Part shown: positions 1,834 to 19,356 of the stretch, in pieces
Numbering within the stretch: the first letter of the stretch is position 1
How the letters are laid out: each line of letters opens with the position of its first letter
Origin: a virus
DNA: 23,171 nucleotides
Reading direction: 5' to 3' (one strand)
IMG/VR virus record: IMGVR_UViG_3300030090_004846
Location: 1-23,171 of that record
The notes under the pieces: model-generated
What the model saw: the letters and a program-made list of their open reading frames with translations, nothing else
The model's database searches: none
Told to the model about the DNA's origin: nothing
Program-made: the position numbers and the translations under genes

Positions 1834-1846
1834 CTAAATAATTATA
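1834..1846 (+). promoter_or_regulatory. Late-promoter-like element upstream of tail tube gene
   Basis: The sequence CTAAATAATTATA ends 5 nt before the ATG of the tube gene. It resembles the T4-type late -10 box (TATAAATA). No Shine-Dalgarno sequence lies between it and the start. The same element recurs before six other gene starts in this window. A promoter role is inferred. Confidence 0.6.
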
Positions 1847-1851
1847 ACATC

Positions 1852-2442
1852 ATGGCTGATATTAAACAAACTATACAGGACTTTTATAAGGTCGCACAAA
1901 CACGAGACTTTGCACGAGACTTTCAGTTTCGTGTATTAGATGTATCAAACAAAGGAGTTTCTGTTTTTACAGAAGATGACTTAGTGTATGCTACTGCTGC
2001 TTCCCTCCCGGGTAAGTCAATAGCGACAAAGGATGTCCCGTATAATGGTTTTAACTTCCGTATCCCTGGAACTGTTTCATATAACGATAGCGACGCTTAC
2101 ACAATTGATTTTTATTGTGACGCAACAACAAACGCTCGTATCGCGATTGAGAATTGGATTACCGAGACATATAACGATGAAACAACTACAGGAGACGGGG
2201 TTCTCCACAATAATAGCACTATTACTCTTGCGCAGTTAGATACTAAGTTTGAAGTATTACGTACATACAAGCTGTTTGGTGTATTTCCTGTTAATTGTGG
2301 AGATATCGGCTATACTATGACTGGCTCAGGCGATGTCGCTAATGTTACTATACAATGCGCATACCAATTCTTTAGACGCGATAATGAACTTAATACCGCG
2401 GTTAATGCTATTGGTAAATTAGCTGGTGCTGTATTAGGTTAA
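1852..2442 (+). CDS. 19: Tail tube protein (gp19-like)
   Basis: This is the major tail tube subunit, which stacks as hexamers around the tape measure and forms the DNA channel inside the sheath. It has 196 residues (T4 gp19 has 163). Family-like segments are the N-terminal FARDFQFRVLDV, the TAASLPGKSI loop, the FRIPGTV region, YTIDFYCD followed by an IENWITETYND helix, and the C-terminal strand pair with LFGVFPVNCGDIGY and VTIQCAYQFFRRD. It sits directly after the sheath gene, as in T4. It has its own late-like element upstream and another follows it, so it may be transcribed as a single-gene unit, which would suit a high-copy protein. The start has no SD motif. Confidence 0.93.
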   Translation: MADIKQTIQDFYKVAQTRDFARDFQFRVLDVSNKGVSVFTEDDLVYATAASLPGKSIATKDVPYNGFNFRIPGTVSYNDSDAYTIDFYCDATTNARIAIENWITETYNDETTTGDGVLHNNSTITLAQLDTKFEVLRTYKLFGVFPVNCGDIGYTMTGSGDVANVTIQCAYQFFRRDNELNTAVNAIGKLAGAVLG

Positions 2443-2447
2443 TTGTC

Positions 2448-2460
2448 CTAAATAATTTAA
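2448..2460 (+). promoter_or_regulatory. Late-promoter-like element abutting the next start codon
   Basis: The sequence CTAAATAATTTAA lies directly against the ATG at 2461 with no intervening base and no SD motif. If it is a promoter -10 box, transcription would begin at or next to the start codon. The role is inferred from recurrence of the motif. Confidence 0.58.
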
Positions 2461-3183
2461 ATGGACATTAAACTCAGAAACTCTGAAGCTAAACGTTTAA
2501 GAGATTCTTTTTACGAGCTTCTACAGGACTTCACAACATTTCCTGCGGCTAGTAATTTCTTCCTAGTTAACATACAAAACCTCCCAGAAAACTTAACCGA
2601 GGAGTACGTTAACAGAACTGGGTTGAGAGCTAATACGAACGGTCCAATAGGTCTGGATAAAAGTAAAGATGTATTTAAAAAACTTATAAATGGTTATATG
2701 TTTTTAGTAGACGGGGTTGATTTAACCGTTGAAAAAGCGTTTGCTGCCTCCGAGTCCAATAATAGCGGTATTAACGGGTTATTACCTGTTGGCCCATTTA
2801 TGACAGGTAGAAGGTACCCAGACACAGATTTAAATATACAATTTTCAGAAAGTAATATAAGTTTCGTCGATTCTATAATTAGACCATGGATTCAATTATA
2901 CAGCGTTTATGGAGATTTAGAAGATATAAACTTAAGAACTGACGTAACAGTATTCTTTTTATCCAAACAACAAATTACATCTAGAAAATCTTTTAGTTCA
3001 GTATTATTTGGTTCTCCGGGCGCAGATGCTCCTGTCGTAAGAAAAATATATGAATATAAAAATTGTATTCCATATGAAATACAATCAGCCAATCAAGCTC
3101 AATACACTGATCAAATGGATTTAAAAAGTGTTAGTACAAGCTGGAGATTTAGTAAGTATGATGTAATTACTCCATATACATGA
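2461..3183 (+). CDS. Tail-tube-fold baseplate protein (gp54/gp19-like)
   Basis: This 240-residue protein appears to carry a second tube-type fold. Its C-terminal half has the pattern seen in gp19, gp48 and gp54: a strand (LNIQFSESN), a helix ending IRPWIQLYSVYG, a strand (TDVTVFFLSK), then YEYKNCIPYEIQSAN and a final SVSTSWRFSKYDV strand. The NCIP motif corresponds to the GCIP of T4 gp54 and the FPVNCGDIG of the tube protein here. It may be the tube initiator at the baseplate-tube junction, gp54 in T4 (320 residues), or another tube paralogue. Its ATG follows the late-like element directly. Its stop codon overlaps the next start (ATGA). The fold is fairly secure; the exact T4 equivalent is not. 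Confidence 0.55.
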   Translation: MDIKLRNSEAKRLRDSFYELLQDFTTFPAASNFFLVNIQNLPENLTEEYVNRTGLRANTNGPIGLDKSKDVFKKLINGYMFLVDGVDLTVEKAFAASESNNSGINGLLPVGPFMTGRRYPDTDLNIQFSESNISFVDSIIRPWIQLYSVYGDLEDINLRTDVTVFFLSKQQITSRKSFSSVLFGSPGADAPVVRKIYEYKNCIPYEIQSANQAQYTDQMDLKSVSTSWRFSKYDVITPYT

Positions 3184-3869
3184 TATCATTTAATGATACA
3201 TTACATCTAACAAAATTATATCAAGATAACAAGAAACAAGAAATCTTAAATTTTTTATCTAAAAAGATTTCCTTTGATAATGTTATAGAATTTCTCGATG
3301 AATTAAAAAAGTTAAAATTTAATTTATCTACCTCACACATAAAATTAAATGATAACAAGAGGGAAATTATTTTATATAATGAAAACTTCATTACTAATAT
3401 TCCTAAAATAAAATCCTCTGAAATTAATTTAAATGATATAATTGTTACTATATCTTACCCTAGTATAATTACAGAATGTAATGATTTGTATTTTATTAAA
3501 AAAATACATTTTAATGATTCAAAAACTGAATTTATTTTTAATGCAAAAACAGACTATAATTTTCTATCATATGATATAATAAATAAATGCCAAGAAACTA
3601 TACAACAGTATAAAAGTAATATTAATAACATATACTCTTACTATATTAATAAAGAGGTATCAAGTAGATTTAAATACGATATTGAATCAATAATATATGT
3701 AATATATCTTTCATTAATTAACAATGTAGATTCCTTATTGAATGAACAAATGTTTTTAATGGAAAAGTTTAATTTTAATTATACGGATTTTGATAAATTA
3801 GATTATAATTCTGTAAAACAATATGTAGAGAGAGGTATAAAAACTATAAATGAACGAAATAATAAATAA
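3180..3869 (+). CDS. Possible baseplate hub assembly chaperone (gp26/gp51-like)
   Basis: This 229-residue protein is very rich in Asn, Ile and Lys. It has no signal peptide or membrane segment. The last 100 residues are predicted helical and end with NEQMFLMEKFNFNYTDFDKL followed by a helix, a pattern common in phage tail-assembly chaperones and T4 gp26/gp51-type proteins (208 and 249 residues). The place supports this: in T4, genes 26 and 51 lie just upstream of the gene 27-29-48 block, and here the tape measure and gp48 follow. It starts by ATGA overlap with the upstream gene and overlaps the next gene by 20 nt, suggesting coupled translation. The sequence match alone is weak. Confidence 0.4.
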   Translation: MISFNDTLHLTKLYQDNKKQEILNFLSKKISFDNVIEFLDELKKLKFNLSTSHIKLNDNKREIILYNENFITNIPKIKSSEINLNDIIVTISYPSIITECNDLYFIKKIHFNDSKTEFIFNAKTDYNFLSYDIINKCQETIQQYKSNINNIYSYYINKEVSSRFKYDIESIIYVIYLSLINNVDSLLNEQMFLMEKFNFNYTDFDKLDYNSVKQYVERGIKTINERNNK

Positions 3870-4500
3870 ACTTAAAGAACTTTGTACATTCGAAGTAAAT
3901 CTACCTTCTTTAGAAGCTCCTGTTAAAGTCGAGAAACTCAACATTAATTTTCAAAATAAATTACAAGACGAACTTAATGAAGTGAACGGAGAGAACGAAG
4001 CTGCATTAAGATACTTGAGATTCATTAATAAACATATACAGTCATACTCCAGTCAATCTTTAAATTTTTTCGATAAAATAAAACTACTTGGAGAATGGTA
4101 TAATAATATTAAAAACATAGATGAGAAACTTAAGTTTGATGTATCAGATATTAAAGACCAAACTTTTAATTTTAACTCATCTACGTTAATGTCTGTAAAC
4201 TATTACATACCTTCTCTTGAAAAGGAAGCAACGTTATTAAACTTTCTGTTAAATCGTGAGAAGGTCGCTGATATTGATATTGTATATTTCGATAATTTTA
4301 GGTTTATAAAAGAAATTAAGTTCGGGGAAGACCAATTATACAACATTTCTGAAATGGAACCAAGTTTCAGTTATGATGTTTTTCTAATGTTTGATACTAC
4401 TATTATTAATAATATTTCTAATCATATTAGTAGTAATCTAGAGAGTATTAATGATTTAAGAGAACTAGAAGGAGATTTTACGTTCTACACTAGCATATAA
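3850..4500 (+). CDS. Possible baseplate hub assembly chaperone (gp26-like)
   Basis: This 216-residue protein starts inside the end of the previous gene, with a purine-rich GAGAGAGG at 3828-3835 upstream. Near the N-terminus it has VNLPSLEAPVKVEKLNINFQ, which resembles the 'LPSTGKKV-x-RP-x-TVKEEK' opening of T4 gp26-type proteins. A helix follows, containing FFDKIKLLGEWYNNI. The rest alternates short strands and helices and ends FTFYTS. It is probably a non-virion or low-copy assembly factor for the hub or tape measure, since the tape measure gene follows directly. Together with the previous gene it occupies the T4 26/51 slot. The assignment is by motif and position only. Confidence 0.4.
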   Translation: MNEIINKLKELCTFEVNLPSLEAPVKVEKLNINFQNKLQDELNEVNGENEAALRYLRFINKHIQSYSSQSLNFFDKIKLLGEWYNNIKNIDEKLKFDVSDIKDQTFNFNSSTLMSVNYYIPSLEKEATLLNFLLNREKVADIDIVYFDNFRFIKEIKFGEDQLYNISEMEPSFSYDVFLMFDTTIINNISNHISSNLESINDLRELEGDFTFYTSI

Positions 4501-4502
4501 AA

Positions 4503-4515
4503 TTAAATAATTATA
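4503..4515 (+). promoter_or_regulatory. Late-promoter-like element before tape measure gene
   Basis: The sequence TTAAATAATTATA ends one base before the ATG at 4517. It is identical to the element before gp25 (12355-12367). There is no SD motif. It would drive the tape measure-gp48-gp53-gp27 unit. Confidence 0.6.
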
Positions 4516-4516
4516 T

Positions 4517-6175
4517 ATGCCTGACGAAGATACTCGAGCAATACTGCAAACGATTTATACAAGTATAAATCGAATTAATGATCTCCAAAAAGAACAAAAA
4601 GATACAACCGACGCAGTATTGTTGGCAGGTTCTACATCTGAAGAAGAACTTAAAAACTTAAGAAACAAAATATCTACAAATAACAAATCTATTGATAGAC
4701 TAACAGGTTCTATTAAAAAATTAATCCAGCCATCACCGCGAAGAACTCAACAAGCGCGCGACAAATTTAAAGAAGATAAAAAAGATAAAGAAGATCAAAA
4801 AAACCAAAAAGTAAGCGTGTTAAACAAAAGCCTTACTAAGATGTCTACTTCTTTAAGTAATATTGAGAAGTTAATTAAAGACCAAAACAATCAATTTGGT
4901 AAAAATGGTACATATAATGTTGGTTTAAAAGGTCAAACTTCAGATGCTGATAAAAGCAAGACTAACGGTCAATTAGACCCTACAGCTACAAGATTAAGAG
5001 GCCAAACTTCTGACGCTGATAGTAAATCCGAAAAAGAAAGAGAAAAGAAGAGCGAGGGGTTTGATCTTAGAGGTAAAAGTGAAAGACTTGGCGCCGGTAC
5101 TGGGAGCCTACTTAATCAACTTGGTATGTCAGAATTATCAAAGCCTGCTGAAGAGGGTATAGGTTTATTAGGTACCATACTTGGGTTAGGAGGTACAGCG
5201 CTCGGTGTTCGAGGATTGTATAAAAAATTCTTTGGTAAACCTACTAAACCTAAACCACCGACCCTACCTAGAACAGGTAAACCTACTAAACCAACTAAAC
5301 CACCACTTGAATATAGAACAAACAAGAAAACTGGTAATTTAGAAGTAAAAGCTAAATCAGGTAAATACTATGATGTAAATAAACCACAAGGCAAAGCAAT
5401 TGAAACAAGAGGAGGTACTCAAAAAATTGGCGATGCTATTAAAAATAGACCTGATTCAGTTATTAAAAAGGGGGCAGCTAAAGCCGCATCAAAAACTGGT
5501 CTTCGCGCCGCATCTAAATTTTTAGGCCCATTCGCGTTACTAGTAGAAGCAGGATTTACCGTGAATGATGCAATCGAAATTATGAATAACCCTGATGCAT
5601 TAGATAATTTCAGAGAAGAATTTAAGAAAAAAGGAATAGGCGGGAAAACGTTAGATGTACTTTTAAACCCAGCGTATGCCTCGGCAATGATGGGTGAAAA
5701 TATAGGGGAAGCGTACGCGAAGATATTTGATGGTGGAGCTAATCAAGCCATTACTGAAGGTCAAGAAATTTTAAAGAAAAAACGAATTGATAAATTAATG
5801 GAAGTTGATCCGAAGCTAGATAGAAAAAAACTTGAAGAAGCAAATCATAAAATCATAGATCTTTTATATATAGAAAACGTTAAAAATAAAAGAGAGCTTG
5901 AAAAAGCAAAAGAATTAAATATTAAAATGTCAGAACAGGTAGACCAAGAACTTAAAAAAATACCTGATGACGCACCTCTTCTACCTGGAGAGGGTAGTAT
6001 AAGACCAATAGAATGGACTGATCCCGAAATGATTATGAGACAAAGACAACTTTCAGACCCGAATTATGTTCCAAGATCAGGACCATTAATTATAGATCAA
6101 AAAACAATAAACAATGGGTCAGCTTTATCTCCATCAGAACAAATAATAATTGAGAAAGAAAAGAGAGGTCAATAA
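4517..6175 (+). CDS. 29: Tape measure protein (gp29 position)
   Basis: Tape measure proteins set tail length and occupy the tube lumen. This one has 552 residues (T4 gp29 has 590). Residues 1-75 form a predicted coiled coil. A very charged Lys/Asp/Glu/Gln linker follows at about 75-110. A GQTSDAD motif occurs twice at about 140-170. A Gly/Leu/Ile-rich hydrophobic segment spans about 214-235, and a second Ala-rich hydrophobic stretch lies near 325-357, as in tape measures that insert into membrane. Between them is a Pro/Thr/Lys linker made of GKPTKP repeats. The C-terminal 140 residues are helical and charged. It stands between the chaperone-like genes and gp48, the T4 order. It is a low-similarity family, so the call rests on architecture, length and place. 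Confidence 0.7.
   Translation: MPDEDTRAILQTIYTSINRINDLQKEQKDTTDAVLLAGSTSEEELKNLRNKISTNNKSIDRLTGSIKKLIQPSPRRTQQARDKFKEDKKDKEDQKNQKVSVLNKSLTKMSTSLSNIEKLIKDQNNQFGKNGTYNVGLKGQTSDADKSKTNGQLDPTATRLRGQTSDADSKSEKEREKKSEGFDLRGKSERLGAGTGSLLNQLGMSELSKPAEEGIGLLGTILGLGGTALGVRGLYKKFFGKPTKPKPPTLPRTGKPTKPTKPPLEYRTNKKTGNLEVKAKSGKYYDVNKPQGKAIETRGGTQKIGDAIKNRPDSVIKKGAAKAASKTGLRAASKFLGPFALLVEAGFTVNDAIEIMNNPDALDNFREEFKKKGIGGKTLDVLLNPAYASAMMGENIGEAYAKIFDGGANQAITEGQEILKKKRIDKLMEVDPKLDRKKLEEANHKIIDLLYIENVKNKRELEKAKELNIKMSEQVDQELKKIPDDAPLLPGEGSIRPIEWTDPEMIMRQRQLSDPNYVPRSGPLIIDQKTINNGSALSPSEQIIIEKEKRGQ
5234..5292 (+). repeat. 17-bp direct repeat encoding the Pro/Thr/Lys linker of the tape measure
   Basis: GGTAAACCTACTAAACC occurs at 5234-5250 and again at 5276-5292, in the same frame and 42 bp apart. 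It encodes the two GKPTKP copies, with further PTKP-type units around them. This may be a site of in-frame length change. Confidence 0.85.
6163..6168 (+). promoter_or_regulatory. Ribosome binding site fixing the gp48 start
   Basis: GAGAGG lies 8 nt before the ATG at 6177. It favours that start over the in-frame upstream ATG at 6150, which lies deep in the tape measure gene and would add nine Lys/Arg/Glu-rich residues. Confidence 0.6.
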
Positions 6176-6176
6176 A

Positions 6177-7319: not shown

Positions 7320-7684
7320 TGATAACAGATTTAAACAAAACTCAGAATAATATAACCGAATTAGAAAGCTTAAAAGAAACTCGTTATGAGAATATTTTTA
7401 AGATGGCAAAATCTGACGCATATTTCTTTTATAATATTATTAAAAAAATATCTCTACCTGATGATATACAAGAAGAAGTGTTTTTTAACATACGTGTAAA
7501 TGCACGAAAGCCATGGACTGCATTATCTCATGATGTATACGGTACTCAAGATCTTTGGTGGTTAATTTGTATTGTAAATAAAGTATACAATCCCATTAAT
7601 AATCCTGAACCTGGAAGAATTTATAAAGTAATAAAACCTGACTTGATAGATATTGTTTTAGCTGAAATAACTAGGCAGTTATGA
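7319..7684 (+). CDS. 53: Baseplate wedge protein (gp53-like)
   Basis: gp53 joins neighbouring wedges around the hub. This one has 121 residues, shorter than T4 gp53 (196) but like the compact versions in many marine T4-like phages. It shows the core of the family: YFFYNIIKKISLPDDI, then RKPWTALSHDVYGTQDLWWLICIVN, then PGRIYKVIKP, a LysM-like segment. A good SD (GGAGGAAGGA, 7298-7307) precedes the ATG, which overlaps the gp48 stop. Its own stop overlaps the hub gene start as ATGA. Confidence 0.85.
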   Translation: MITDLNKTQNNITELESLKETRYENIFKMAKSDAYFFYNIIKKISLPDDIQEEVFFNIRVNARKPWTALSHDVYGTQDLWWLICIVNKVYNPINNPEPGRIYKVIKPDLIDIVLAEITRQL

Positions 7685-9084: not shown

Positions 9085-9965
9085 GTTTGACGCCAGCAAA
9101 AACAGGAATACCTAATATAGTAAATAGTAAATTATTTACTACAGTCGATTTTCATATATCAGCAACAAACTTTTCTGGTATTATAGATAATTATAAAGAT
9201 TATGTCGCCGCTTGTAAGTTATATAGAACTACTAAATTTAATTCTGACCCTATAACAGCTGAAGCGGAATTTTGGGAAGACTTAACTAAAGCAAGTTTAG
9301 ATTTATCTAAAGTATCAAAAACAAGCTCTGGTGGGTTTGATATAGGTTCTGACGAAGGAGGAGAATTTATTGCGTGGTGGTTAGATGAATATAGAAGAAC
9401 TCATTTTAAAGTAAAAGAAATATTAGAAAGTAAAATTAATATTGAAGATACTATACTACAGGAGTTTTCTGAAAGTGTTGGTTTTTTATTCTTTCAACAT
9501 CAATTCCCTGATAGTAGATATACTCACTATGCGGATGATGACGGAGATCCAACACCTATACCATATAATAGTATTATAGATGATAAATTAGAATTTGAAA
9601 CAAGAACAAATATAATAGGTCTCAATAAGCGTGTTGACGCTATTTTTAAGAGAAACATGCAGCAAGTAATAAACACAACAGACGTTAGTACTGACGCTCA
9701 TCGAGAAAATTTAGTTACTGATCATTTACATTATAAAAGATTAAAAGAAAACCAACCTGAGATAAATGAAAATATTGGTAATACTTTGGGGGACGCTTAC
9801 AAAGTATTATTATGGTTATCATCAGCGAAACTTAATGACAAACAAGTTAACGTACCTGCAGTAATAACAACCACAATTGAAGGAGATCAAGAAGCTATAG
9901 ATATTTTAGGCAATAAAATAAAATACAACACCCCTCTCACTACTGATACATTAACAAGTGGATAA
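9081..9965 (+). CDS. Unrecognised 294-residue protein in the hub gene slot
   Basis: I do not recognise this protein. It starts by ATGA overlap with the hub gene, so it is translated with it and probably acts in or near the baseplate hub. It has no signal peptide, membrane helix or visible catalytic motif. It begins with a short Pro/Gly segment, continues with mixed helices (EAEFWEDLTKASLDL, EFIAWWLDEYRRTHFKV, LQEFSESVGFLFFQHQFPDSRYTHY), and has an acidic DDDGDPTP loop around residue 152-159. The C-terminal 90 residues are helical with Asn/Asp-rich linkers. It ends by overlapping the 3' end of a gene on the other strand by 15 nt. It could be a small hub or spike part; I see no gp5-type lysozyme domain. 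Confidence 0.6.
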   Translation: MSLTPAKTGIPNIVNSKLFTTVDFHISATNFSGIIDNYKDYVAACKLYRTTKFNSDPITAEAEFWEDLTKASLDLSKVSKTSSGGFDIGSDEGGEFIAWWLDEYRRTHFKVKEILESKINIEDTILQEFSESVGFLFFQHQFPDSRYTHYADDDGDPTPIPYNSIIDDKLEFETRTNIIGLNKRVDAIFKRNMQQVINTTDVSTDAHRENLVTDHLHYKRLKENQPEINENIGNTLGDAYKVLLWLSSAKLNDKQVNVPAVITTTIEGDQEAIDILGNKIKYNTPLTTDTLTSG

Positions 9966-10433
9966 TTGATCTGGAGCTTTACTTTGAGAAGTAACATCAA
10001 TTATATCTTTACTATCTTTTAACAGTTTAGATATTACCTCCTCCCGGCTCATTGTAAGAGAATGAGATTGATCAGATTGTTGTAATTCTTTCTTGGATTC
10101 AATATCCATTTCTTTCGTTTTTATTGTAGTTTTGGATTTTTTATCTTGGATTACAATTTTGTTCAATGTTTCTAATGCTCCAGTAGACGCTTTGACTAAC
10201 TCTGATAAAGCAGACATATTATCTGCTTCAGGTAAGTGATGTACAACTTCTTTCATATTGTCTATCATCTCTGAACTATCTTGTATTAATTTAGAGGATT
10301 GCTTAATAACAAAATCTTCTAAATCTTCTCGACTAATTTCAGGATGCTGTGCAGCAACACGTTCTAGTTTTTTACTATCCGCAGGTAAAGTTTTTAACTG
10401 CGAAATTAAATCTTCCGGATTAATATCATCCAT
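9951..10433 (-). CDS. Possible small terminase subunit (gp16-like)
   Basis: This leftward gene encodes 160 acidic, helical residues. The pattern HPEISREDLEDFVIKQSSKL, then PEADNMSALSELVKASTGALETLNKI, then QDKKSKTTIKTKEMDIESKKE resembles the gp16 small terminase of T4-like phages (164 residues in T4), whose central coiled coil forms a ring that regulates DNA packaging by the large subunit gp17. No enzyme motif is present, as expected for that role. An AT-rich late-like element stands directly before its ATG, so it is likely expressed late with the structural genes. It converges on the 294-residue gene with a 15-nt overlap. An alternative is an unrelated coiled-coil protein. Confidence is moderate to low. 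Confidence 0.42.
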   Translation of the reverse strand: MDDINPEDLISQLKTLPADSKKLERVAAQHPEISREDLEDFVIKQSSKLIQDSSEMIDNMKEVVHHLPEADNMSALSELVKASTGALETLNKIVIQDKKSKTTIKTKEMDIESKKELQQSDQSHSLTMSREEVISKLLKDSKDIIDVTSQSKAPDQLSTC

Positions 10434-10445
10434 AAAATTATTTAC
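10434..10445 (-). promoter_or_regulatory. Late-promoter-like element before leftward gp16-like gene
   Basis: Read on the minus strand it is GTAAATAATTTT, directly abutting the ATG at 10433. It shares the TAAATAATT core with the six other copies. The sigma70-like promoter of the dUTPase gene begins one base to its right, pointing the other way. Confidence 0.55.
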
Positions 10446-10473
10446 TTGAATAACAATTTATTTACACTATATT
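10446..10473 (+). promoter_or_regulatory. sigma70-like promoter for dUTPase and clamp loader
   Basis: A -35-like TTGAAT (10446-10451) and a -10-like TATATT (10468-10473) are separated by 16 nt. The predicted start of transcription is about base 10480, at the first ATG of dUTPase. This differs from the TAAATAATT element before all other gapped starts, consistent with early or middle expression of a nucleotide and replication pair. An inverted repeat overlaps the -10 box. Confidence 0.5.
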
Positions 10474-10493
10474 AGTGTTATGAGTAGTGTAAA
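10461..10493 (+). repeat. Inverted repeat over the dUTPase promoter and start
   Basis: TTTACACT (10461-10468) is matched by AGTGT at 10474-10478 with a 5-nt loop, and by the full complement AGTGTAAA at 10486-10493. The -10 box lies in the first loop and the ATG at 10480 in the second. It could be an operator or an mRNA hairpin, or it may be chance in AT-rich DNA. Confidence 0.4.
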
Positions 10494-10917
10494 AATGGAG
10501 TTCGTCAAGACGCATAAGGATGCAAAATTACCTGAGAGAGCACATGCAAGTGATTCTGGTTATGATTTAACTAGTGTAGCAGAAGCATTAATACCCGCTA
10601 AAGGTTCCGCTGTAGTTCCTGTTGGCTTAACGTTAGGTTATTTAGAACCAGGTTGGTGGTTTAGAATTGAGCCAAGAAGTGGTCTAGGTTTTAAGAAGAG
10701 TTTACAACCTCATTTGGGTATTATCGATAATGGCTATCGTGGAGATCTTGGAGTTAAGCTTTATAATTTCAGCGGTTCAGATTGGACTCTGCCTGCAGGC
10801 AGTAAAATTGCTCAGTTAGTTTTGTACCCTCATATTACAGCTAACGTAAGTTGGGCTGATGAAGTTACTGAAGCTGATCGTGGTGACGCAGGATTTGGAT
10901 CAACTGACAAAGCATAA
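10480..10917 (+). CDS. dut: dUTP diphosphatase (trimeric dUTPase)
   Basis: It hydrolyses dUTP to dUMP and pyrophosphate, keeping uracil out of phage DNA and supplying dUMP for thymidylate. It has 145 residues, the usual size. All five motifs of the trimeric family are visible: motif 1 ASDSGYDL (23-30), motif 2 PRSGLGFK (65-72), motif 3 GIIDNGYRG (80-88) with the catalytic Asp at 83, motif 4 GSKIAQLVL (107-115), and motif 5 RGDAGFGSTD (134-143), the Gly-rich tail that closes over the substrate. The start is uncertain: Met6 at 10495 gives an N-terminus (MEFVKTHKDAKLPERA) closer to the family. Neither ATG has an SD. It overlaps gp44 by one base and has a promoter unlike that of the structural genes. 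Confidence 0.95.
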   Translation: MSSVKMEFVKTHKDAKLPERAHASDSGYDLTSVAEALIPAKGSAVVPVGLTLGYLEPGWWFRIEPRSGLGFKKSLQPHLGIIDNGYRGDLGVKLYNFSGSDWTLPAGSKIAQLVLYPHITANVSWADEVTEADRGDAGFGSTDKA

Positions 10918-11825
10918 TGGAAATATCTGATATTTGGGTCGAGAAATATAGACCTACAACTTTAAATGATTTAGTTTTAAATGATAATATTATCACTTAC
11001 TTCTCTAAGGTAAGTGACGATAAGAATTTACCTAATATTTTATTTGTAGGCCATCCAGGTATTGGAAAAACTACTTTAGCTAAAGTCATAGTAAATGATA
11101 TTCTTAAATGTCAATATCTATATATCAATGCATCTGATGAAAATGGTATTGATACTATAAGAACTAAAGTACTAAATTTTGCTCAAACGAAAAGTCTGTT
11201 TGGCGATATCAAAGTTATTATTCTAGATGAGTGCGATGGGTTATCTGTTGATGCACAAAAAGCATTACGTAATTCTATTGAAGAATATCACGATCTAACT
11301 AGATTCATACTAACTGCTAATTATAAACATAAAATTATCCCAGCTCTACAAAGTAGATGCCAAACAATTAATATTTCATATGCAAAAACAGATTATATAC
11401 AAAAATTAATTAGTATTACTAAAAAAGAAAATGTAACAATTACTAAGACCGATTTTATGGAAATCGTGGATACTAGTTATCCGGATTTCAGAGGTGGTAT
11501 AAATAATCTACAAAAATACCATTTATCAGGCGGTAACCAACAAACAATATTTGATTCTACTAGTTTCTTTACTGACGTTACTGATTTATTAGTAAAGAAA
11601 CAATTTATGAAGATAAGAAAATATATTATTGAGAATGAAAGTTTATTCAATAATGATTATGATCTTTTATTTAAAAAATTATTTGACTTCATATATGAAT
11701 TTTCTGGTATAAATGAAGAAAAAAAGAGAGACTGGTTAATAACAGTCTCTAAATATTTTTATCAGAATAGTATTTGTATTGATCAGGAGATCAATTTCTA
11801 TTCATGTATTCTTGAGTTAGATTAA
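10917..11825 (+). CDS. 44: Clamp loader large subunit, AAA+ ATPase (gp44-like)
   Basis: gp44 uses ATP with gp62 to load the sliding clamp gp45 onto DNA for replication, and in T4 this clamp also activates late transcription. The product has 302 residues (T4 gp44 has 319). Visible motifs are WVEKYRP (7-13), typical of RFC and gp44 loaders; Walker A GHPGIGKT (45-52); Walker B VIILDECD (100-107); sensor-1 region ILTANY (131-136); and the SRC arginine-finger motif at 146-148. The Asp-Glu-Cys-Asp box has Cys where T4 has Phe. The C-terminal 100 residues form the helical collar. No gp62 gene follows in this window. The start overlaps the dUTPase stop by one base, so the two are probably co-transcribed. 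Confidence 0.95.
   Translation: MEISDIWVEKYRPTTLNDLVLNDNIITYFSKVSDDKNLPNILFVGHPGIGKTTLAKVIVNDILKCQYLYINASDENGIDTIRTKVLNFAQTKSLFGDIKVIILDECDGLSVDAQKALRNSIEEYHDLTRFILTANYKHKIIPALQSRCQTINISYAKTDYIQKLISITKKENVTITKTDFMEIVDTSYPDFRGGINNLQKYHLSGGNQQTIFDSTSFFTDVTDLLVKKQFMKIRKYIIENESLFNNDYDLLFKKLFDFIYEFSGINEEKKRDWLITVSKYFYQNSICIDQEINFYSCILELD
11719..11750 (-). terminator. Rho-independent terminator for the leftward 166-residue gene, inside gp44
   Basis: On the minus strand the hairpin AGAGACTG-TTATTAAC-CAGTCTCT (8 perfect base pairs, 8-nt loop, 11727-11750) is followed after one C by seven U (11719-11725). It lies 72 nt past the stop codon of the leftward gene. It overlaps gp44 codons near its C-terminus. 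On the plus strand the hairpin lacks an immediate U tract. Confidence 0.75.
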
Positions 11826-12322
11826 ACCTCAGAGATATATTTCGCAGTGGATAACTCGTAGTCTCCGTTAGGTACTTTAGTTTGCTGGCCTACCTCTATC
11901 TCTTTGTCTTCATGTACCTCAGGCTTAAGAGAAACGTTATCTTTTTGATTATTAGTTTCATCTTTTTGAGTCCCACGAGCATCAGCAGAAGAAATATCAA
12001 ATTCTAATAATTCTAACGGGATAGTAAGCTTTTCCGCATAAAAACCGGGAGAGATCTCTACAGCTATATCAGCGAGTTGTTTGTCTGAATCAGTAGTCTC
12101 AGTCTCATATACAGCTTTTTTAATTGTAGATAACATTACTGGTTTTCCTTCTTCACTTATAGTAATGATGTTATCTACATAAGACTTTCGAGCTTCATCT
12201 AAACTTTTATACCAATCAGATGTCTTTAGGTCAGATTTAAATTTTATATAATCTCCAGCAATAGGACCTGATTTAATGAACCTGCCTATTTGAGCCTCAA
12301 ATAATGTATCGAACTTACTCAT
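11822..12322 (-). CDS. Unrecognised 166-residue protein, leftward
   Basis: I do not recognise it. It opens MSKFDTLFEAQIGRFIKSG followed by PIAGDYIKFKSD, a two-part start (short amphipathic helix, then a small beta segment with a GD-x-[IV]-K-F pattern) that I associate with small uncharacterised proteins in marine T4-like phages. A helix with DEARKSYVDNI follows, then YAEKLTIPLELLEFD. The last 60 residues are hydrophilic, acidic and probably disordered (ADARGTQKDETNNQKD). It has no membrane segment. A late-like element abuts its ATG and a strong terminator follows its stop, so it looks like a single-gene late transcript. The stop codons of this gene and gp44 share the palindrome TTAA at 11822-11825. 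Confidence 0.75.
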   Translation of the reverse strand: MSKFDTLFEAQIGRFIKSGPIAGDYIKFKSDLKTSDWYKSLDEARKSYVDNIITISEEGKPVMLSTIKKAVYETETTDSDKQLADIAVEISPGFYAEKLTIPLELLEFDISSADARGTQKDETNNQKDNVSLKPEVHEDKEIEVGQQTKVPNGDYELSTAKYISEV

Positions 12323-12336
12323 TTAAATTATTTATG
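12323..12336 (-). promoter_or_regulatory. Late-promoter-like element before the leftward 166-residue gene
   Basis: On the minus strand this reads CATAAATAATTTAA, directly before the ATG at 12322. It is the copy closest to the T4 late box, with ATAAATA. A second copy faces rightward 18 nt away, making a divergent pair. Confidence 0.6.
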
Positions 12337-12354
12337 CTTTTAAGCATTCTTAAA

Positions 12355-12367
12355 TTAAATAATTATA
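12355..12367 (+). promoter_or_regulatory. Late-promoter-like element before gp25
   Basis: TTAAATAATTATA ends one base before the ATG at 12369 and is identical to the copy before the tape measure gene. No SD is present. It would drive gp25, gp6 and the two large structural genes after them. Confidence 0.6.
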
Positions 12368-12368
12368 C

Positions 12369-12851
12369 ATGGCTCTTAACTTAGACATATTAAAAGATAA
12401 CAAAAATAAAGATAGTTATCGCAAATATTCTTATGCAGACTTAAGTTTGGATTTATCTTTAGATAGTTTTAAACCAAATACTCCTGTAGGAGCTAATGCG
12501 AACCCTCAAGACTTAAAAATAAGTTATGATGAGGAAGCGATATTCAATTCAATACATAATATTTTTAATACTAAAAAAGGTCAAAAAATATTATCACCGG
12601 AATTTGGTTTAGATCTTGAGCAATTTCTTTTTGAAAACATTACAAAAGAAAACGCGACATTAATAGGTAATAAAATAGTAGAAGAATTACCTAGATTTGA
12701 ACCAAGAGTGAGAGTTGAAAATGTTAACATTATTTCCAGACCTGATGATAATGAGTATAAAATAACTATGAGTGTGATTATTCCATTATTAAATAATAAA
12801 AAAAGAGCAGTGACTGGAATATTAAACAGGGAAAATTTTACTTACATATAA
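12369..12851 (+). CDS. 25: Baseplate wedge protein (gp25-like)
   Basis: gp25 is a sheath-initiator and wedge core protein with a lysozyme-like fold name in domain databases but a structural role. It has 160 residues (T4 gp25 has 132). The extra N-terminal part (1-50) is hydrophilic with DLSLDLSLD. The core starts at ISYDEEAIFNSIHNIF, followed by TKKGQKILSPEFGLDLEQFLFE and then the conserved EPRVRVENV segment (Glu-Pro-Arg at 111-113). The final part contains YKITMSVIIPL. It is directly followed by gp6, its partner in the wedge. Confidence 0.92.
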   Translation: MALNLDILKDNKNKDSYRKYSYADLSLDLSLDSFKPNTPVGANANPQDLKISYDEEAIFNSIHNIFNTKKGQKILSPEFGLDLEQFLFENITKENATLIGNKIVEELPRFEPRVRVENVNIISRPDDNEYKITMSVIIPLLNNKKRAVTGILNRENFTYI

Positions 12852-12852
12852 T

Positions 12853-14685
12853 ATGGCAAACTTTACAGAATTTAATCTACCGACTAACGCTTATACAAGC
12901 TTTGACGCTCAAAGCTTACGTAAGTTAATTATTGATCGTATCAATAACGACAGCTCAATTAACTTTACAGATCAAAATTTCGAGGGTAGTAATATTTCCG
13001 CATTAATAGATATTGTAGCCTATTCATATCATACATTACTTTTTTACTTAAATCAAACTAGTTCTGAAAGTAATTTTAACGATGCAGAATTATTCGAAAA
13101 TATAAATAGGTTAACTAAACTTATAGATTACAAACCTACAGGTAAACAATCTTCTGTTTTACCTATAACAATAACAGGTACAAGTGATTTATCCGTCGGT
13201 TATTATACATTACCTCAATTTAGTTTTATATCTGCTAATGGTAAGACATACACCTTATCAGATGATTTAACATTTGAAAAGACAACTACAGCTACAGAAA
13301 CCATAACCGCTGTTGGAAATGAATTAATGTATGAAGGTACAATAGAGGAATTTCCGCCTGTATTAGCTTTAGGGGAAAAATTTGAAGTAGTAAATTTATT
13401 ACCAGGGGAAGATGTAATTGTAGATCATTTTAATATATTTGTATATGTTAAAGAAGTAAATGAGAACAACAAATGGTATAAATGGACAAGATGTCCTAGC
13501 TTATTTCTAGCTAAACCAAATGAACGTAAATTTGAAGTTCGTTATAATGAAAATAAAAATTATGAGATTAAATTTGGTAATAATGTAAATGGTAAAAAGT
13601 TAAATGTTAACGATACTGTTGCAGTTTATTATCTTAAGTCAAGTGGAGAAGAAGGTAAGGTAACCAAAAACGCTTTTGCAAATACTCCAGTTAATATATA
13701 CAACACAACTCAATTTGATACGATTTTCGACGATGTGAAAGATACATCTCTTAGTTATGTCTCTATACAAGATTCAGTAAAAATAAATGTTTCCAACTCA
13801 GAAGATAGTACTGATTTTGGTGATGAAGAGAGTGTAAAAGAAATAAAACAAAACGCCCCTAGGTTTTTTAATTCAGAATATAAACTAACCACAAAAGCAG
13901 ATTATAAAACATTTATAAGTAGTAACTTTAAAAATTTAATATATGATGTTACAGTATTAAACAATAGTGATTATGTTAATAATTATTTACACTATTTAAA
14001 TACTGAGCTAGGTCTTACAGATTACACTCAAGAAGCTAATGCTTTGTTTAATCAAACATATTTCGCTGATAGTTCAGATAGTAATAATATATACTTAACA
14101 ATCGTACCCAACTTAAGAAAAAACAAATCAATAGTTACAAGGTCTAATTACTTGTCTCCCACGTTAAAAGAAAAAATACAAAGAGACATTAAAAATTATA
14201 AACTGTTAAATAGTGAAATTGTTTTTATTGATCCTATGTATATGAGTGTAGATTTATCGTCGAAAAGTATTAATGAACCAGTAAAGCTTGAATATAAAGA
14301 TTATACACAATTAGTCATAATAAGAGAGCCTCGAACACTTGTAAATGAAGATAATTTAAAAAGTAAAGTTTTTAATATTATCTCGTCTCATATAACTTCT
14401 TTGAAACTAGGAGGTACAATTGATGTAAAACAATTGAATACAGATATTGAAAATATAAATGGTATTGTAGGGATAAAAACAAAAAGAACTGACACTAATG
14501 TAACTACTAATGGAGTTTCTTTATGTATTTTTAACCCTGTACATTTAGGTAGAGATTTAAAATTTGTAGAGACATTCTGTCAATTAAGACCATTTCAAAT
14601 ACCTTATATTGAAAATGATAAACAGTTCAAAGAAAAAATAATTGTAGAAACTGAAGCTTTAACCAAAACCGTAATTGAATATTAA
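12853..14685 (+). CDS. 6: Baseplate wedge protein (gp6-like)
   Basis: gp6 forms the inner ring of the baseplate and holds wedges together during the hexagon-to-star change. It has 610 residues (T4 gp6 has 660). The N-terminal region is typical: FNLPTNAYTSFDAQSLRKLI, then NFEGSNISALIDIVAYSYHTLLFYLNQTSSE and INRLTKLIDYKPTGKQSS. The middle contains the beta-sheet segment FEVRYNENKNYEIKFGNNVNG. Later there are QNAPRFFNSEYKLTTKADYK and a region with TIVPNLRKNKSIV. This protein belongs to the J/gp6 superfamily of wedge proteins. It starts one base after the gp25 stop and overlaps the following gene by one base. Confidence 0.93.
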   Translation: MANFTEFNLPTNAYTSFDAQSLRKLIIDRINNDSSINFTDQNFEGSNISALIDIVAYSYHTLLFYLNQTSSESNFNDAELFENINRLTKLIDYKPTGKQSSVLPITITGTSDLSVGYYTLPQFSFISANGKTYTLSDDLTFEKTTTATETITAVGNELMYEGTIEEFPPVLALGEKFEVVNLLPGEDVIVDHFNIFVYVKEVNENNKWYKWTRCPSLFLAKPNERKFEVRYNENKNYEIKFGNNVNGKKLNVNDTVAVYYLKSSGEEGKVTKNAFANTPVNIYNTTQFDTIFDDVKDTSLSYVSIQDSVKINVSNSEDSTDFGDEESVKEIKQNAPRFFNSEYKLTTKADYKTFISSNFKNLIYDVTVLNNSDYVNNYLHYLNTELGLTDYTQEANALFNQTYFADSSDSNNIYLTIVPNLRKNKSIVTRSNYLSPTLKEKIQRDIKNYKLLNSEIVFIDPMYMSVDLSSKSINEPVKLEYKDYTQLVIIREPRTLVNEDNLKSKVFNIISSHITSLKLGGTIDVKQLNTDIENINGIVGIKTKRTDTNVTTNGVSLCIFNPVHLGRDLKFVETFCQLRPFQIPYIENDKQFKEKIIVETEALTKTVIEY

Positions 14686-17039
14686 TGGCTGAATGTAAAG
14701 ATAATTGTCCTGTAAGTGTACCAGTACCGATTAAAGTACGAGTAAACACAACAGATGAGATTAAAAAGGGTAATACGACTATAAGTCATTTATCCGCCCA
14801 TTCTCTATCTGCTACAAACGTAGGTTATACGAAAATATCAAAGTTTACATTTACTCCTGCACTCACCTCAAATAATTTAACTGAATTATTACCGACTGCA
14901 ATATCAACAAAAACAGTTGTGTTCGATTTTGGAGATGGTACTTCGTTAAGCGCTACAAATGATTTAACAGTATCTCATAAATTTAAACTCCCAGGAGTTT
15001 ATAATGTTAATATGTTTTTGTACGACAAAAGCGGGAACGCCGTACCAAACACAATGAACCAATCTGTATCAGTTTTTAATTATAAGGAGACAGATATAAA
15101 AGTCGAAACTGCCGCGCCCGTAAACGTATTCACAGGAGATTACACCCCATTTCAAGTACATATAGATCTTTCCTGGCAGGATTACGTATTAGACGAACCA
15201 TCTACAATTTTTCTAGCAGCTAGTGGGAGCAAGTCTAAACCATATGACACTGAAAACAGATACGCTCACTTAATACCATATAATGCTTTTTACGAAAATG
15301 TTTCAGGCATGCCGTTACCTGGTAATAAGCAGTTAGATTTAACTCCGAAATATTTTTATGTAAAAAACAATAAGGTAGAAAGTGTTGGAGTTAGTACTGC
15401 AAACACATTACTTGATGAGCTAAGCGCTGAATTATTATATGCAACATCTCCTACCTCAGGTTCCTATTTTTATTATTATGATGATTTACCTACTAACAGA
15501 GTAGATATACTAATAAGCGTAGATACTAGCAAACATCAAATTAATGATTTTTATGTTGAGAATATAAATATAGACCAAAACAGATCAGGATTAAACTATC
15601 TTGAGACTCCCACTGCAGGCGCTGACGTAAAAAGCCAGAATCAACGTAAAGGATTTTCTTTACGTGTTAATAAATCAGCGCCACATAGTTTTAGTTTTAC
15701 TTCTACTGGAATGCCTGAGATGTCTGCTATACAATACAAAAGACAAGGAGATAAATTTCAAGTTTTAATAGGCGTACGAGATAGAAAAAATAATATTCTC
15801 AAATACTACGATAAATTTAAATATACAACTAATGTAGGTACGATTACTTCAGCTGCAGACAATACGTTTTATGTTGAGTTCGTATCTGGTAATGCAACTG
15901 GTTCAGGTCATAGCGCAGTCAGCAGTTTAAGTACAAATAAATTCCCGTACAACACTACAACAGAGAAAACTGAACTAAGTAGTTTCTTATATACAAATAT
16001 TAACCCAACTGAATCTGGTACATGGACAATATATGTAACTGGTAAAAATACTGATTTTATTTCCTTAACTGGCGTTACCGGAAGTATAGGATCAGGTACA
16101 GGGAATGTAGGTATAGGTACTACTTCAAGTTCAACAAACATCCTTACTGGTTCTTATACATTTACAATAGCACCTTCAACAAACTCTTCTGAAGTTTATA
16201 AAATTAACGAAGATATTGATTACAGTCAAACAATAAAAAGTTATAGATTTCAATCTTTCATGCATGAATATGATAAGTTGTTCGATGGTATTTTTACAAG
16301 TTTCGTAGGAGAGGCTAGTTCTAGTCCTACTGTGTTTGGTAAGACTGTATTTGAGAAAATTGCTAATTTTGTGGGTAATAACAATGATGTAGATGTATGT
16401 AATATTAAAAATATTACAAGTTTTTACGATTTTCTAAACGAAGAGATTAATCTTCTTTTACCGGAACCCCCACCTGAATTAAAACGATTGTATGATTTGT
16501 TTAGTATTAAAATATCAAAATTAATAGGTGGATATGAACGATTTGATAGAAATTTCGATACTCAATATTACACTACTTCTGCTATAAGTCGTAATATTAA
16601 TTTAAATAGCAAAATTACAACTAGTTCTTATGTTGTATCAGCTGGTACACCTTTTGTAGCAAAGCAAAGATTTAACGATGAATATATTCTAATTAGACCT
16701 CAAAAAATACCTACATATTATACTGACGGTTCGTCTACCGGTGAAACAAGTTCATATTCTTTATCTGTATATAACCAATTTGGAAGTAACTGGGGTTGGG
16801 CATTAGATACAACAATATCTGGCGCTAGTGGGTTAGATACATTTTATGAATTTTACCCGTATACTACATATGATACAACATCAAGTAATGAAAATATAAA
16901 AAATAGTGTTATAGATTTTAACAACACATATAATACAGTTACTCGAGGAGTTACTTCGTTAAGTGGCAGTTGGGATAATGACGGAGGTATTGTTTACAAC
17001 AATTTAGATTATCAAATAAGGAAAGGGTTATTATTATAA
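14685..17039 (+). CDS. Large baseplate protein with PKD domain (gp7 position)
   Basis: This 784-residue protein sits where T4 has gp7 (1032 residues), straight after gp6. Residues about 55-135 form a PKD-type domain: VVFDFGDGTS (Phe-Asp-Phe-Gly-Asp-Gly at 80-85), then TVSHKFKLPGVYNVNMFLYD. Such immunoglobulin-like domains usually mediate protein or glycan contact. A Cys-containing N-terminus (CKDNC) precedes it. Several beta-rich segments follow, then a Gly/Thr/Ser linker near 463-490. The C-terminal 270 residues contain NFVGNNNDVDVCNI, LKRLYDLFSIKISKLIGGYERFDRNFD and a final repeat-free region ending DYQIRKGLLL. That C-terminal pattern recalls large virion proteins of marine T4-like phages. 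A wedge role is inferred from place; direct gp7 homology is not shown. Confidence 0.6.
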   Translation: MAECKDNCPVSVPVPIKVRVNTTDEIKKGNTTISHLSAHSLSATNVGYTKISKFTFTPALTSNNLTELLPTAISTKTVVFDFGDGTSLSATNDLTVSHKFKLPGVYNVNMFLYDKSGNAVPNTMNQSVSVFNYKETDIKVETAAPVNVFTGDYTPFQVHIDLSWQDYVLDEPSTIFLAASGSKSKPYDTENRYAHLIPYNAFYENVSGMPLPGNKQLDLTPKYFYVKNNKVESVGVSTANTLLDELSAELLYATSPTSGSYFYYYDDLPTNRVDILISVDTSKHQINDFYVENINIDQNRSGLNYLETPTAGADVKSQNQRKGFSLRVNKSAPHSFSFTSTGMPEMSAIQYKRQGDKFQVLIGVRDRKNNILKYYDKFKYTTNVGTITSAADNTFYVEFVSGNATGSGHSAVSSLSTNKFPYNTTTEKTELSSFLYTNINPTESGTWTIYVTGKNTDFISLTGVTGSIGSGTGNVGIGTTSSSTNILTGSYTFTIAPSTNSSEVYKINEDIDYSQTIKSYRFQSFMHEYDKLFDGIFTSFVGEASSSPTVFGKTVFEKIANFVGNNNDVDVCNIKNITSFYDFLNEEINLLLPEPPPELKRLYDLFSIKISKLIGGYERFDRNFDTQYYTTSAISRNINLNSKITTSSYVVSAGTPFVAKQRFNDEYILIRPQKIPTYYTDGSSTGETSSYSLSVYNQFGSNWGWALDTTISGASGLDTFYEFYPYTTYDTTSSNENIKNSVIDFNNTYNTVTRGVTSLSGSWDNDGGIVYNNLDYQIRKGLLL

Positions 17040-19343
17040 ATGATAGACTTAAATACAACTAATCCATTATCGTTTTTAGATTGGAAAGCATATCAACAAG
17101 ATAAATCTAGCGCTGCAGAGTTATCTTTAGGTTACAATAATTATCTTATAGAGTGGAAAGAGCAGAAATCTACCAATACTACCAACGACACAAACTATAA
17201 AAAAACCATTTATTTAGGTTTCTTACAAAATATAAATATATCTTCTTTCCCTGAAAAAATACAGTCATTTATAAATGAAATTGATACCGATGATGTTTAT
17301 GAATTAGAACTCGCCGTACATTATTACACAGCAGCGATCAGACAACAACTTAATAATTCCAAAGATGTACGTGACGAAATTCAGTTCACAAAAACTAAAA
17401 ATAATTTTAAGATATCTAAATTGGGTATTGAAAAATATCTACATAATTTTATTATAAATTTATTATCAAATAAAGAATTCATATCTGAAAAAACCGATAC
17501 AACTAATGTTAATATATCTCAAATATCTAATAGATTAAAAATATTAATTAACTCTCTTGTTACAGATAATTCTATTCTATATAAATCCTCCCAACCAGAT
17601 GCTCGGTTAGTAAAAAACTTAAAGAGTAAAATAAAACAAGAAAGTGAAAGAGTTGTACAATCAATTTCTATTAATAAAGGTGGTAGAAAACTTAAATTAA
17701 AAACAAACTCATTCGCGAAAAAAATACGGAATGGTAGACTTTCAATCAATCAACGGTTTACTAATTACAATAGATTACCTGAGCGATTTTTTAAAAATGA
17801 AAATAAAAGTTTAGAAAATTTGTTGTATACTTTAGAGAAGGATTTAATTGAAAAATACATATCTAACGATTTGTTTCTACTCACTAAAAAAACAAATAAT
17901 TATACTTTAGATAATATTTTCAAATCAAAAAACCCTACCGGTAATTTATTTCAACGCTACGGGGCAAACACTGCGCAAAATTTAACAAATTTAAAAAACC
18001 GAAAAGATTTTCCAGAGCAATTATCTTACTCAAATACAGGTACCTCATTATTTTATTCAAGCGATTTGTCTTTTTACGTGGAACTCTCAGCATTTACCAA
18101 TACTGAGTATGTTATACCTGATCCATACAAATACCAGCCTGGTGTTGAAATAGTAGGTAACGCTAAGGTCGGAGACAATATAGTGAGGAATATTACTATC
18201 AAAAAGAATGTCCCTCTTATATATTCTAATAAAAATATTAAGTACAAAAATACTAATACTGGATCATCTGTACAATTCTATAATAATAAATTACTAAGAA
18301 ATTACGGTTATCAAAGCCAAGAAAATACATTAGATTATTCCGCTGTGGGTATTAATAAAAAAGAAGATTCTATTAATTTTTGGACTGGTAAAGAACATAA
18401 TATATGGAAAAATACGGATGTATATCCAGTTAGTAATTTAAATGTATATCCTGAAACAGAACGATTAGATGATTTAATTATTAATAATAAAACCGGTATA
18501 AAATTAAAAACTGATTTATTCGGCAATGAATTTATTTTTCTTAAAAATAGTTACCCTAAGAGACTTGCAGGAGCTAGCTATATATCAGAAACATCTACAA
18601 CTACAACAGATATTACAGCATGCGAAGTGTATGATGGTCTTTATTTTGACTCAGTACTTGCAGCGATTACTGCAGCAGAACTTAGCGCGGAGACAGATGG
18701 TTTTACTGGGACAGCTCTCAATAATATAACTGATAGAGTTAATACAAAGTATCCCTCTGGGTCAGCTTTATTTGATACACATATTGTTTCTCTTAATACA
18801 GATGAGTATAATAGCTCAGATTCTTTTTATGCTCCTTTATCAACAACAGCTTGTAGTGAGTTACAGGATATAGAATCTGATAGTATAGTTGATTGTGGTC
18901 CTTTTGTTGATCATCCATGCGGTAGTCAACATGTAATAAACGGACATTTTCAAAATACAACTGTCCCTTACATTACCTCTGTACAACAAGATCTAACAGC
19001 TATCCATGATTATAGTACTACAACATACGAAGCATCTTCGTTAAATAACCCTGTTACAGCGGCCGTACATTTATTCGAACAACAATATGTAAGTGGGGGA
19101 GAGATTTTTATCCGAAATACATACACACAAAAAGTAAATCCATTATCTGCGGAAATGGCGGATTTATTTAATAAGCATTCTGCAGCAACAAAAACGAGAA
19201 TTAAAACAGATGATATAAGAGATTTCGATATTATAGATAATACTATTTATATACAAACTGGGACAGAAACATTAACAGAGTTATATAATTTTGAAGATGG
19301 TAAATTTAAAATCGCAGCAAGTTCGAATTCTCTAATAAGTTAA
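17040..19343 (+). CDS. Large virion structural protein, 767 residues, function unknown
   Basis: The start is supported by AAGGAAAGGG at 17019-17028 and by adjacency to the upstream stop. I do not recognise a named family. The N-terminal part (LDWKAYQQDKSSAAELSLGYNNYLIEWKEQ) and following helices look like a virion attachment region. Residues about 190-240 are Lys/Arg-rich (KGGRKLKLKTNSFAKKIRNGR). The middle is beta-rich, with TGSSVQFYNNKLLRNYGYQSQ and NFWTGKEHNIWKN. Around 525-625 there is a Cys-containing segment (TACEVYDGLYFDS, then TTACSELQDIESDSIVDCGPF). The C-terminus, DFDIIDNTIYIQTGTETLTEL, looks like a strand pair that would continue into the next gene, so the protein may be the first half of a split larger protein. 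Confidence 0.65.
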   Translation: MIDLNTTNPLSFLDWKAYQQDKSSAAELSLGYNNYLIEWKEQKSTNTTNDTNYKKTIYLGFLQNINISSFPEKIQSFINEIDTDDVYELELAVHYYTAAIRQQLNNSKDVRDEIQFTKTKNNFKISKLGIEKYLHNFIINLLSNKEFISEKTDTTNVNISQISNRLKILINSLVTDNSILYKSSQPDARLVKNLKSKIKQESERVVQSISINKGGRKLKLKTNSFAKKIRNGRLSINQRFTNYNRLPERFFKNENKSLENLLYTLEKDLIEKYISNDLFLLTKKTNNYTLDNIFKSKNPTGNLFQRYGANTAQNLTNLKNRKDFPEQLSYSNTGTSLFYSSDLSFYVELSAFTNTEYVIPDPYKYQPGVEIVGNAKVGDNIVRNITIKKNVPLIYSNKNIKYKNTNTGSSVQFYNNKLLRNYGYQSQENTLDYSAVGINKKEDSINFWTGKEHNIWKNTDVYPVSNLNVYPETERLDDLIINNKTGIKLKTDLFGNEFIFLKNSYPKRLAGASYISETSTTTTDITACEVYDGLYFDSVLAAITAAELSAETDGFTGTALNNITDRVNTKYPSGSALFDTHIVSLNTDEYNSSDSFYAPLSTTACSELQDIESDSIVDCGPFVDHPCGSQHVINGHFQNTTVPYITSVQQDLTAIHDYSTTTYEASSLNNPVTAAVHLFEQQYVSGGEIFIRNTYTQKVNPLSAEMADLFNKHSAATKTRIKTDDIRDFDIIDNTIYIQTGTETLTELYNFEDGKFKIAASSNSLIS

Positions 19344-19356
19344 GTAAATAATTATA
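19344..19356 (+). promoter_or_regulatory. Late-promoter-like element between the 767- and 948-residue genes
   Basis: GTAAATAATTATA fills the whole 13-nt gap between the stop at 19343 and the ATG at 19357. No SD is present. It could give separate transcription of the lectin-type adhesin gene. Confidence 0.58.

Follow-up and report, generated by a model that had tools for sequence, protein, structure and literature searches.

Late promoters of phage T4 carry a box that lies roughly one turn of the helix before the start site, with its first position at -13; they have no -35 element, and the segment downstream of the box is AT-rich (PMC2988020). Because the 8-bp box starts at -13, it ends at -6, five bases before +1. 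The T4 box mostly lies 12–46 nt upstream of the start codon (mode 27–28), which leaves a leader on the mRNA. A related box, NATAAATA, is found in the marine T4-like cyanophages S-PM2 and Syn9 (PMC2984593). In pelagimyophages late promoters could not be predicted (PMC7029224).

Leaderless genes of bacteria, described in Deinococcus (PMC12340547), in mycobacteria (PMC4633059) and with TA-like signals (PMC3160421), have a -10 element of the sigma70 kind a few nt before ATG or GTG and no Shine-Dalgarno (SD) sequence. 70S ribosomes can use a 5'-terminal AUG without an SD (PMC9031893). The mRNA of lambda cI and similar phage messages also begin at the AUG, but these are isolated genes rather than an entire late programme. 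Both T4-type late promoters and leaderless mRNAs have been described before. In the open-access literature that was searched, no phage was reported to run its late programme on leaderless messages, though an earlier report may exist. Phage AR9 was considered as a precedent and rejected, as the AR9 paper reports leaders of 26–491 nt. Here we describe a large group of uncultured T4-like marine viruses in which the late start signal lies about five letters before the protein start and the messages are probably leaderless and free of SD sequences. T4 itself does not use this arrangement.

Results

The stretch of DNA that was analysed (the window) comprises 23,171 bases of a 29,933-base record from an uncultured phage. 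Its genes include sheath, tube, gp25, gp6, clamp loader and dUTPase genes of a T4-superfamily myophage. With gp6 as query 37 related loci were collected, and with the longest contig's DNA polymerase 80. Counts were made on 12 records (G000–G005, G007, G010, G011, G012, G015 and G019) with 1,202 gene starts, which are simple first-ATG calls. The 12 relatives are non-independent samples; nonetheless, the spacing peak described below recurs in genomes whose proteins are only 40–85% identical.

The nearest cultured phages are distant. The terminase is at best 37–40% identical to those of Agrobacterium and Sinorhizobium phages, and identity to the closest cultured phages is approximately 30% for DNA polymerase and 31% for the capsid protein (cyanophages). 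Comparison of terminase, capsid and DNA polymerase showed no close core-gene kinship with the Pelagimyophage or Kyanoviridae groups. The best matches of ThyX, which may be phage-borne, are spread over many phyla and name no host. A SAR11-phage protein was compared with 200 Pseudomonadota genomes; among the matches listed, none is as poor in G+C as a SAR11 genome should be. G001 has four tRNA genes, for Met, Thr, Arg and Leu (L049:18433-18508 and L051:3677-5288), and none was found in G007, G010, G012 or G015.

A sequence-only reading of this DNA had noted seven copies of TAAATAATT placed directly before start codons. All seven are exact matches at the positions it gave, five on the (+) strand and two on the (-) strand (Table 1). 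The gap to the ATG is 2–8 nt from the end of TAAATAATT, or 5–11 nt from the end of its TAAATA core, and is 5–7 nt by the latter measure at 6/7 starts. Two more exact copies, at 9130 and 13981, are gene-internal and lie on the (-) strand, so that 7/9 copies in the window stand directly before gene starts. Beyond the window, the record carries TAAATAATT where genes start near 23264 (+) and near 28571 (-), and the start of the (-) gene 29228-29578 is preceded by a variant box. The box of gene 4517-6175 occupies the same place before its positional counterpart at 28247 in G001. The same reading had held that every start after a true gap except that of dUTPase has the motif and that none of the motif starts has an SD. 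Both statements are borne out: 7/8 window starts with a gap of at least 13 nt or at a divergent junction carry the box, and no SD is present at these seven. None of the tightly coupled starts in the window carries TAAATAATT. Over-representation of TAAATAATT as a word was considered and dropped, since the window holds 60 matches with at most one mismatch against 55 expected, which is not significant. The non-random feature of TAAATAATT is its position, not its frequency.

Table 1. Late boxes, dUTPase promoter elements and identified genes in the window
Feature	Position	Strand	Gene served or family match	TAAATA to ATG (nt)	Predicted leader	Conservation and remarks
Late box TAAATAATT	1835-1843	+	Tail tube gene	11	~6 nt	
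Tail tube gene	1852-2442	+	PHROG 45, E 8e-25			Late box kept in 9/9 orthologs
Late box	2449-2457	+	Gene 2461-3183	6	~1 nt	Kept in 6/7 orthologs
Late box	4504-4512	+	Gene 4517-6175	7		
Late box	10436-10444	-	Gene 9951-10433	5	Predicted +1 is A of ATG	Kept in 18/19 orthologs
dUTPase -35-like sequence TTGAAT	10446-10451	+	dUTPase gene			Conserved in close relatives
dUTPase -10-like sequence TATATT	10468-10473	+	dUTPase gene			16 nt after -35, 6 nt before ATG at 10480; conserved in close relatives
dUTPase gene	10480-10917	+	PHROG 135, E 3.4e-41			Sole gap start in the window without late box
Late box	12326-12334	-	Gene 11822-12322	6		Kept in 33/33 orthologs
Late box	12356-12364	+	gp25 gene	7		Kept in 37/37 orthologs
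gp25-like baseplate wedge gene	12369-12851	+	PHROG 261, E 4.9e-24			
Late box	19345-19353	+	Gene 19357-22203	6		Kept in 19/19 orthologs

At 12323-12367 a 46-nt intergenic region contains two divergent late boxes, back to back. This arrangement is conserved in nearly all relatives seen, and an imperfect inverted repeat lies between the boxes.

The distance between box and start codon was then examined in the 12 genomes, where a fixed spacing had been proposed as a check. The TAAATA core peaks at 5 nt before the ATG. Counts by spacing are 1 at 4 nt, 97 at 5, 70 at 6, 33 at 7, 18 at 8, 26 at 9, 10 at 10 and 13 at 11 nt, while the other ATGs of these genomes (n = 33,035) show a flat 0.04–0.14% TAAATA across spacings. 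The 5-nt peak is repeated in the larger genomes, with 9–15 starts in each of G001, G007, G010, G011, G012 and G015. An unbiased ranking of positional hexamers (ten genomes, 936 starts) placed TAAATA at 5 nt first (80 occurrences, 1.0 expected), and the next ranks went to this element in shifted register. The five positions after this top-ranking core are mostly A or T. A second positional signal, TATAAT at 6 nt before the ATG, occurred 23 times against 1.4 expected. The motif is not equally common away from starts, as 132/222 exact TAAATAATT copies in the 12 genomes end 0–8 nt before a called start. Four permuted control words had 1–13 of their 92–141 copies near starts, and a control word that shares most of the motif had 38/144.

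If +1 is the earliest position at which an ATG can begin, the spacing should have a minimum of 5 nt. Where the ATG lies 7–11 nt from TAAATA, the sixth base after the box, which is the predicted +1, is A in 69/98 cases and G in 9/98, in line with a start site, and leaders of about 2–6 nt would remain at some of these starts. ATG (183, rate 0.117) and GTG (18, rate 0.054) follow the box above background, and TTG (2) and CTG (1) follow it at the background rate. This preference for ATG and GTG parallels leaderless initiation in mycobacteria (PMC4633059).

The TATAAT starts form a separate promoter class. A TTGACA-like -35 sequence lies 16–18 nt away in 46/70 of them (10.3 expected), whereas such a hexamer is found at that distance in 26/253 TAAATA starts (39.5 expected). 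The late box has no -35. In promoters with both a -35 and a -10, the -10 ends 6 nt before the ATG in 33 cases and 5 nt before it in one. Since -10 boxes of the sigma70 type end at -7, a 6-nt minimum again makes the A of the ATG +1. The two promoter types show edges one nucleotide apart, as their own geometries require. Neither exact TAAATA nor exact TATAAT stands near the ATG at 279/570 gap or divergent starts in the 12 genomes; these may have degenerate boxes or possibly belong to a third promoter class.

For the dUTPase gene, the one exception in the window, a check of relatives had been proposed, and 0/13 orthologs carry a late box. Its -35-like and -10-like sequences (Table 1) look like an early, sigma70-type promoter, for which the A of the ATG is the predicted +1. 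Since this apparent early promoter keeps to the same spacing, the exception speaks for the rule. At 10434-10473 the dUTPase -35 directly adjoins the late box of the divergent (-) gene, and relatives keep this junction, which reads TTCAAGTAAATA on the (-) strand. Given this conservation, occupancy of the junction by either the early or the late polymerase might shut out the other.

The box is confined to a class of genes. Apart from the orthologs in Table 1, it is kept at 15/15 orthologs of the gene at 23275. It is nearly absent at gp6 (1/41 orthologs) and the clamp loader (1/25), and absent at 14685 (0/34) and 17040 (0/27). None of the replication gene orthologs has it (DNA polymerase 0/73, UvsX 0/63, SSB 0/30). 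The late-box class serves late, structural genes and not replication genes. In the 12 genomes the box stands at 231/570 gap or divergent starts and at 22/555 coupled starts. Of the 231 gap or divergent starts with the box, 8 have SD-like words, which is less than the background of 6.3% per 15-nt site; among tightly coupled starts without the box the count is 70/524.

Some genes have the same box and keep a leader. The box of the sheath gene lies 12–30 nt upstream in 6/7 orthologs, most of which have AAAGG between box and ATG. The capsid gene retains a leader with SD in two genomes. At gap or divergent starts with the box 16–22 nt upstream the leader has an SD in 5/10 cases, compared with 1/179 at 4–7 nt. 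The box can also lie far from the start of a very long gene: in G001 a 4,357-residue frame at 98564-111637 (-) has TAAATAATT 23 nt, and TAAATA 26 nt, upstream of its ATG.

A candidate for the factor that reads the box was found in the relatives. The late sigma factor gp55 was detected with a family model (phrog_234) in 13/15 relative records, with E values from 1e-26 to 1e-30; the other two records are incomplete. A single-sequence search for gp55 in G001 found none, and the gp55-bearing segment is missing from G000, from G001 and from the record to which the window belongs. By extension from these relatives, the phage of the window presumably encodes gp55 as well. The co-activator gp33, a short, fast-evolving protein, was not convincingly found, the weak matches to it lying inside other genes. 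Weak matches to the gp45 sliding clamp were obtained in G001 near 11122-11466 (E 1e-5) and in G015 (E 6e-6).

The late box shares with T4 late promoters the TAAATA core, the AT-rich segment after the box, the lack of a -35, the service of late structural genes on either strand and, in relatives, a gp55-family sigma factor. It differs in its distance to the start codon, which is 5–11 nt here, and in its first positions. The two positions before TAAATA are mostly A (116 and 88 of 190) with T in the minority, so that the box departs from TATAAATA at its first positions, with mostly A at -13, rather than T. A(-13) is found at nine T4 sites (PMC2988020). When T4, Syn9, S-H9-2, P-SSM4, phiM9 and Atu_ph04 were put through the same procedure, the box lay mainly 12–45 nt upstream, and a single T4 start (9 nt) had TAAATA within 11 nt. 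In the cyanophages Syn9, S-H9-2 and P-SSM4 TAAATA lies 20–54 nt upstream and never within 11 nt.

Two cultured phages of SAR11 hosts show the same spacing, although they are distant phages of the Kyanoviridae. TAAATA stands exactly 5 nt before the ATG at 11 starts of HTVC008M (0.11 expected), for example TATAAATAGTATT followed by ATG, and at 5 starts of Mosig. HTVC008M differs in that its early TATAAT boxes have no 6-nt peak and in that SDs precede its sheath, tube, portal and capsid genes. Melnitz, a sister phage which infects OM43 and whose gp6 is 49% identical to that of HTVC008M, has one TAAATA within 4–8 nt and 13 farther away. Boxes resembling TATAAATA are divided 17 near to 12 far in the two SAR11 phages and 1 to 10 in Melnitz (Fisher p 0.011). 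The gp25 gene illustrates the difference: the box is 5 nt from the ATG without an SD in HTVC008M and 8 nt away in Mosig, but in Melnitz it is followed by a leader with AGGAG.

Discussion

The element is very probably a T4-type late -10 box that has been moved onto the start codon, where it would be read by gp55 and give leaderless or nearly leaderless late mRNAs. Late in infection, a gp55-family sigma factor with host RNA polymerase would open the DNA at TAAATA, and the first transcribed base would be the A of the ATG or a base one to a few nt ahead of it. Ribosomes would start the first cistron in leaderless fashion at the 5'-terminal AUG or GUG without an SD, and downstream cistrons would rely on ordinary SDs or coupling. 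In early genes, dUTPase among them, sigma70-type promoters would follow the same placement rule. We infer from sequence where the transcripts begin, that gp55 recognizes the box and that the messages are translated without a leader, as well as any connection with the host. Bacterial leaderless promoters are likewise close to the start codon, but they are of the sigma70 -10 kind, and the box described here is of the phage late-sigma type with its own spacing.

The earlier reading had offered promoter and A/U-rich translation enhancer as alternatives, and the evidence has come down on the side of the promoter. As an enhancer, the element would be an unstructured standby or S1-binding site on an mRNA that starts further upstream, and no promoter would be involved. 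A/U-rich unstructured regions before the AUG do aid initiation without an SD, and the element stands directly before the ATG where the SD is missing. An enhancer is not expected, however, to have a minimum of 5 nt that is sharp to one nucleotide (97 starts against 1), or a 6-nt counterpart in sigma70-type promoters. It would also be useful at coupled starts, where the motif is rare. The sheath gene, moreover, has the same box 12–30 nt away with an SD in between, and in T4 the related box is established as a promoter (PMC2988020). The enhancer predicts none of the observations on spacing, -35, gene class, gp55 or SD leaders, and we consider it highly improbable. The promoter reading accommodates them: the hard minimum fits the distance from box to +1 in T4 and has its parallel in the sigma70-type class, the box has no -35 and is restricted to late genes, gp55 is present in relatives, and an SD is found in the leader where the box is farther away, as at the sheath gene and at gp25 of Melnitz.

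Two other explanations concern the start itself. A T4-type late promoter with loose start choice or polymerase slippage would produce short, variable or non-templated leaders. This would suit a spacing that ranges over 5–11 nt and is not single-valued, and a segment after the box that is nearly all A or T. Yet in each of the two promoter classes the commonest spacing is the one that makes the A of the ATG +1, and loose initiation is therefore unlikely. The peak might instead be an artefact of gene calling in AT-rich DNA, if stop codons in TAAATA pushed first-ATG calls behind the box. At spacings of 0, 1, 3, 4, 6, 7, 9 and 10 nt the motif can place a TAA in the frame of the ATG, and this may account for the small excess at 0–3 nt. 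At the modal 5 nt, and at 8 and 11 nt, it cannot, and at 4 nt, where it can, there is a single start. The starts are backed by orthologs, and T4, Syn9 and P-SSM4, handled identically, show no such peak. Frame arithmetic at 5 nt together with the ortholog-supported starts excludes the artefact for practical purposes.

With the late box taken as a promoter, late promoters in SAR11 myophages (PMC7029224) may have been missed because the boxes sit against the start codon; this link is our own. The reading makes single-nucleotide predictions that are testable in the cultured ocean viruses HTVC008M and Mosig on HTCC1062. It also aids start-codon calling and the assignment of early and late genes in uncultured marine phages. 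A broader proposal, plausible but not quite probable, is that the whole of this T4-superfamily lineage has made both its early and its late programmes leaderless with boxes locked to the start codon. Only the most abundant structural proteins (sheath and some capsid) would then keep SD leaders, and the shift would have occurred repeatedly, in parallel with hosts in which leaderless mRNAs are translated efficiently.

The ribosomal protein bS21, which acts at translation initiation, is encoded in 2/15 relatives tested, at 60352-60546 (-) in G001 (L050) and at 80969-81160 (+) in G011. It could be asked whether bS21 is linked with leaderless late mRNAs. HTVC008M also encodes bS21.
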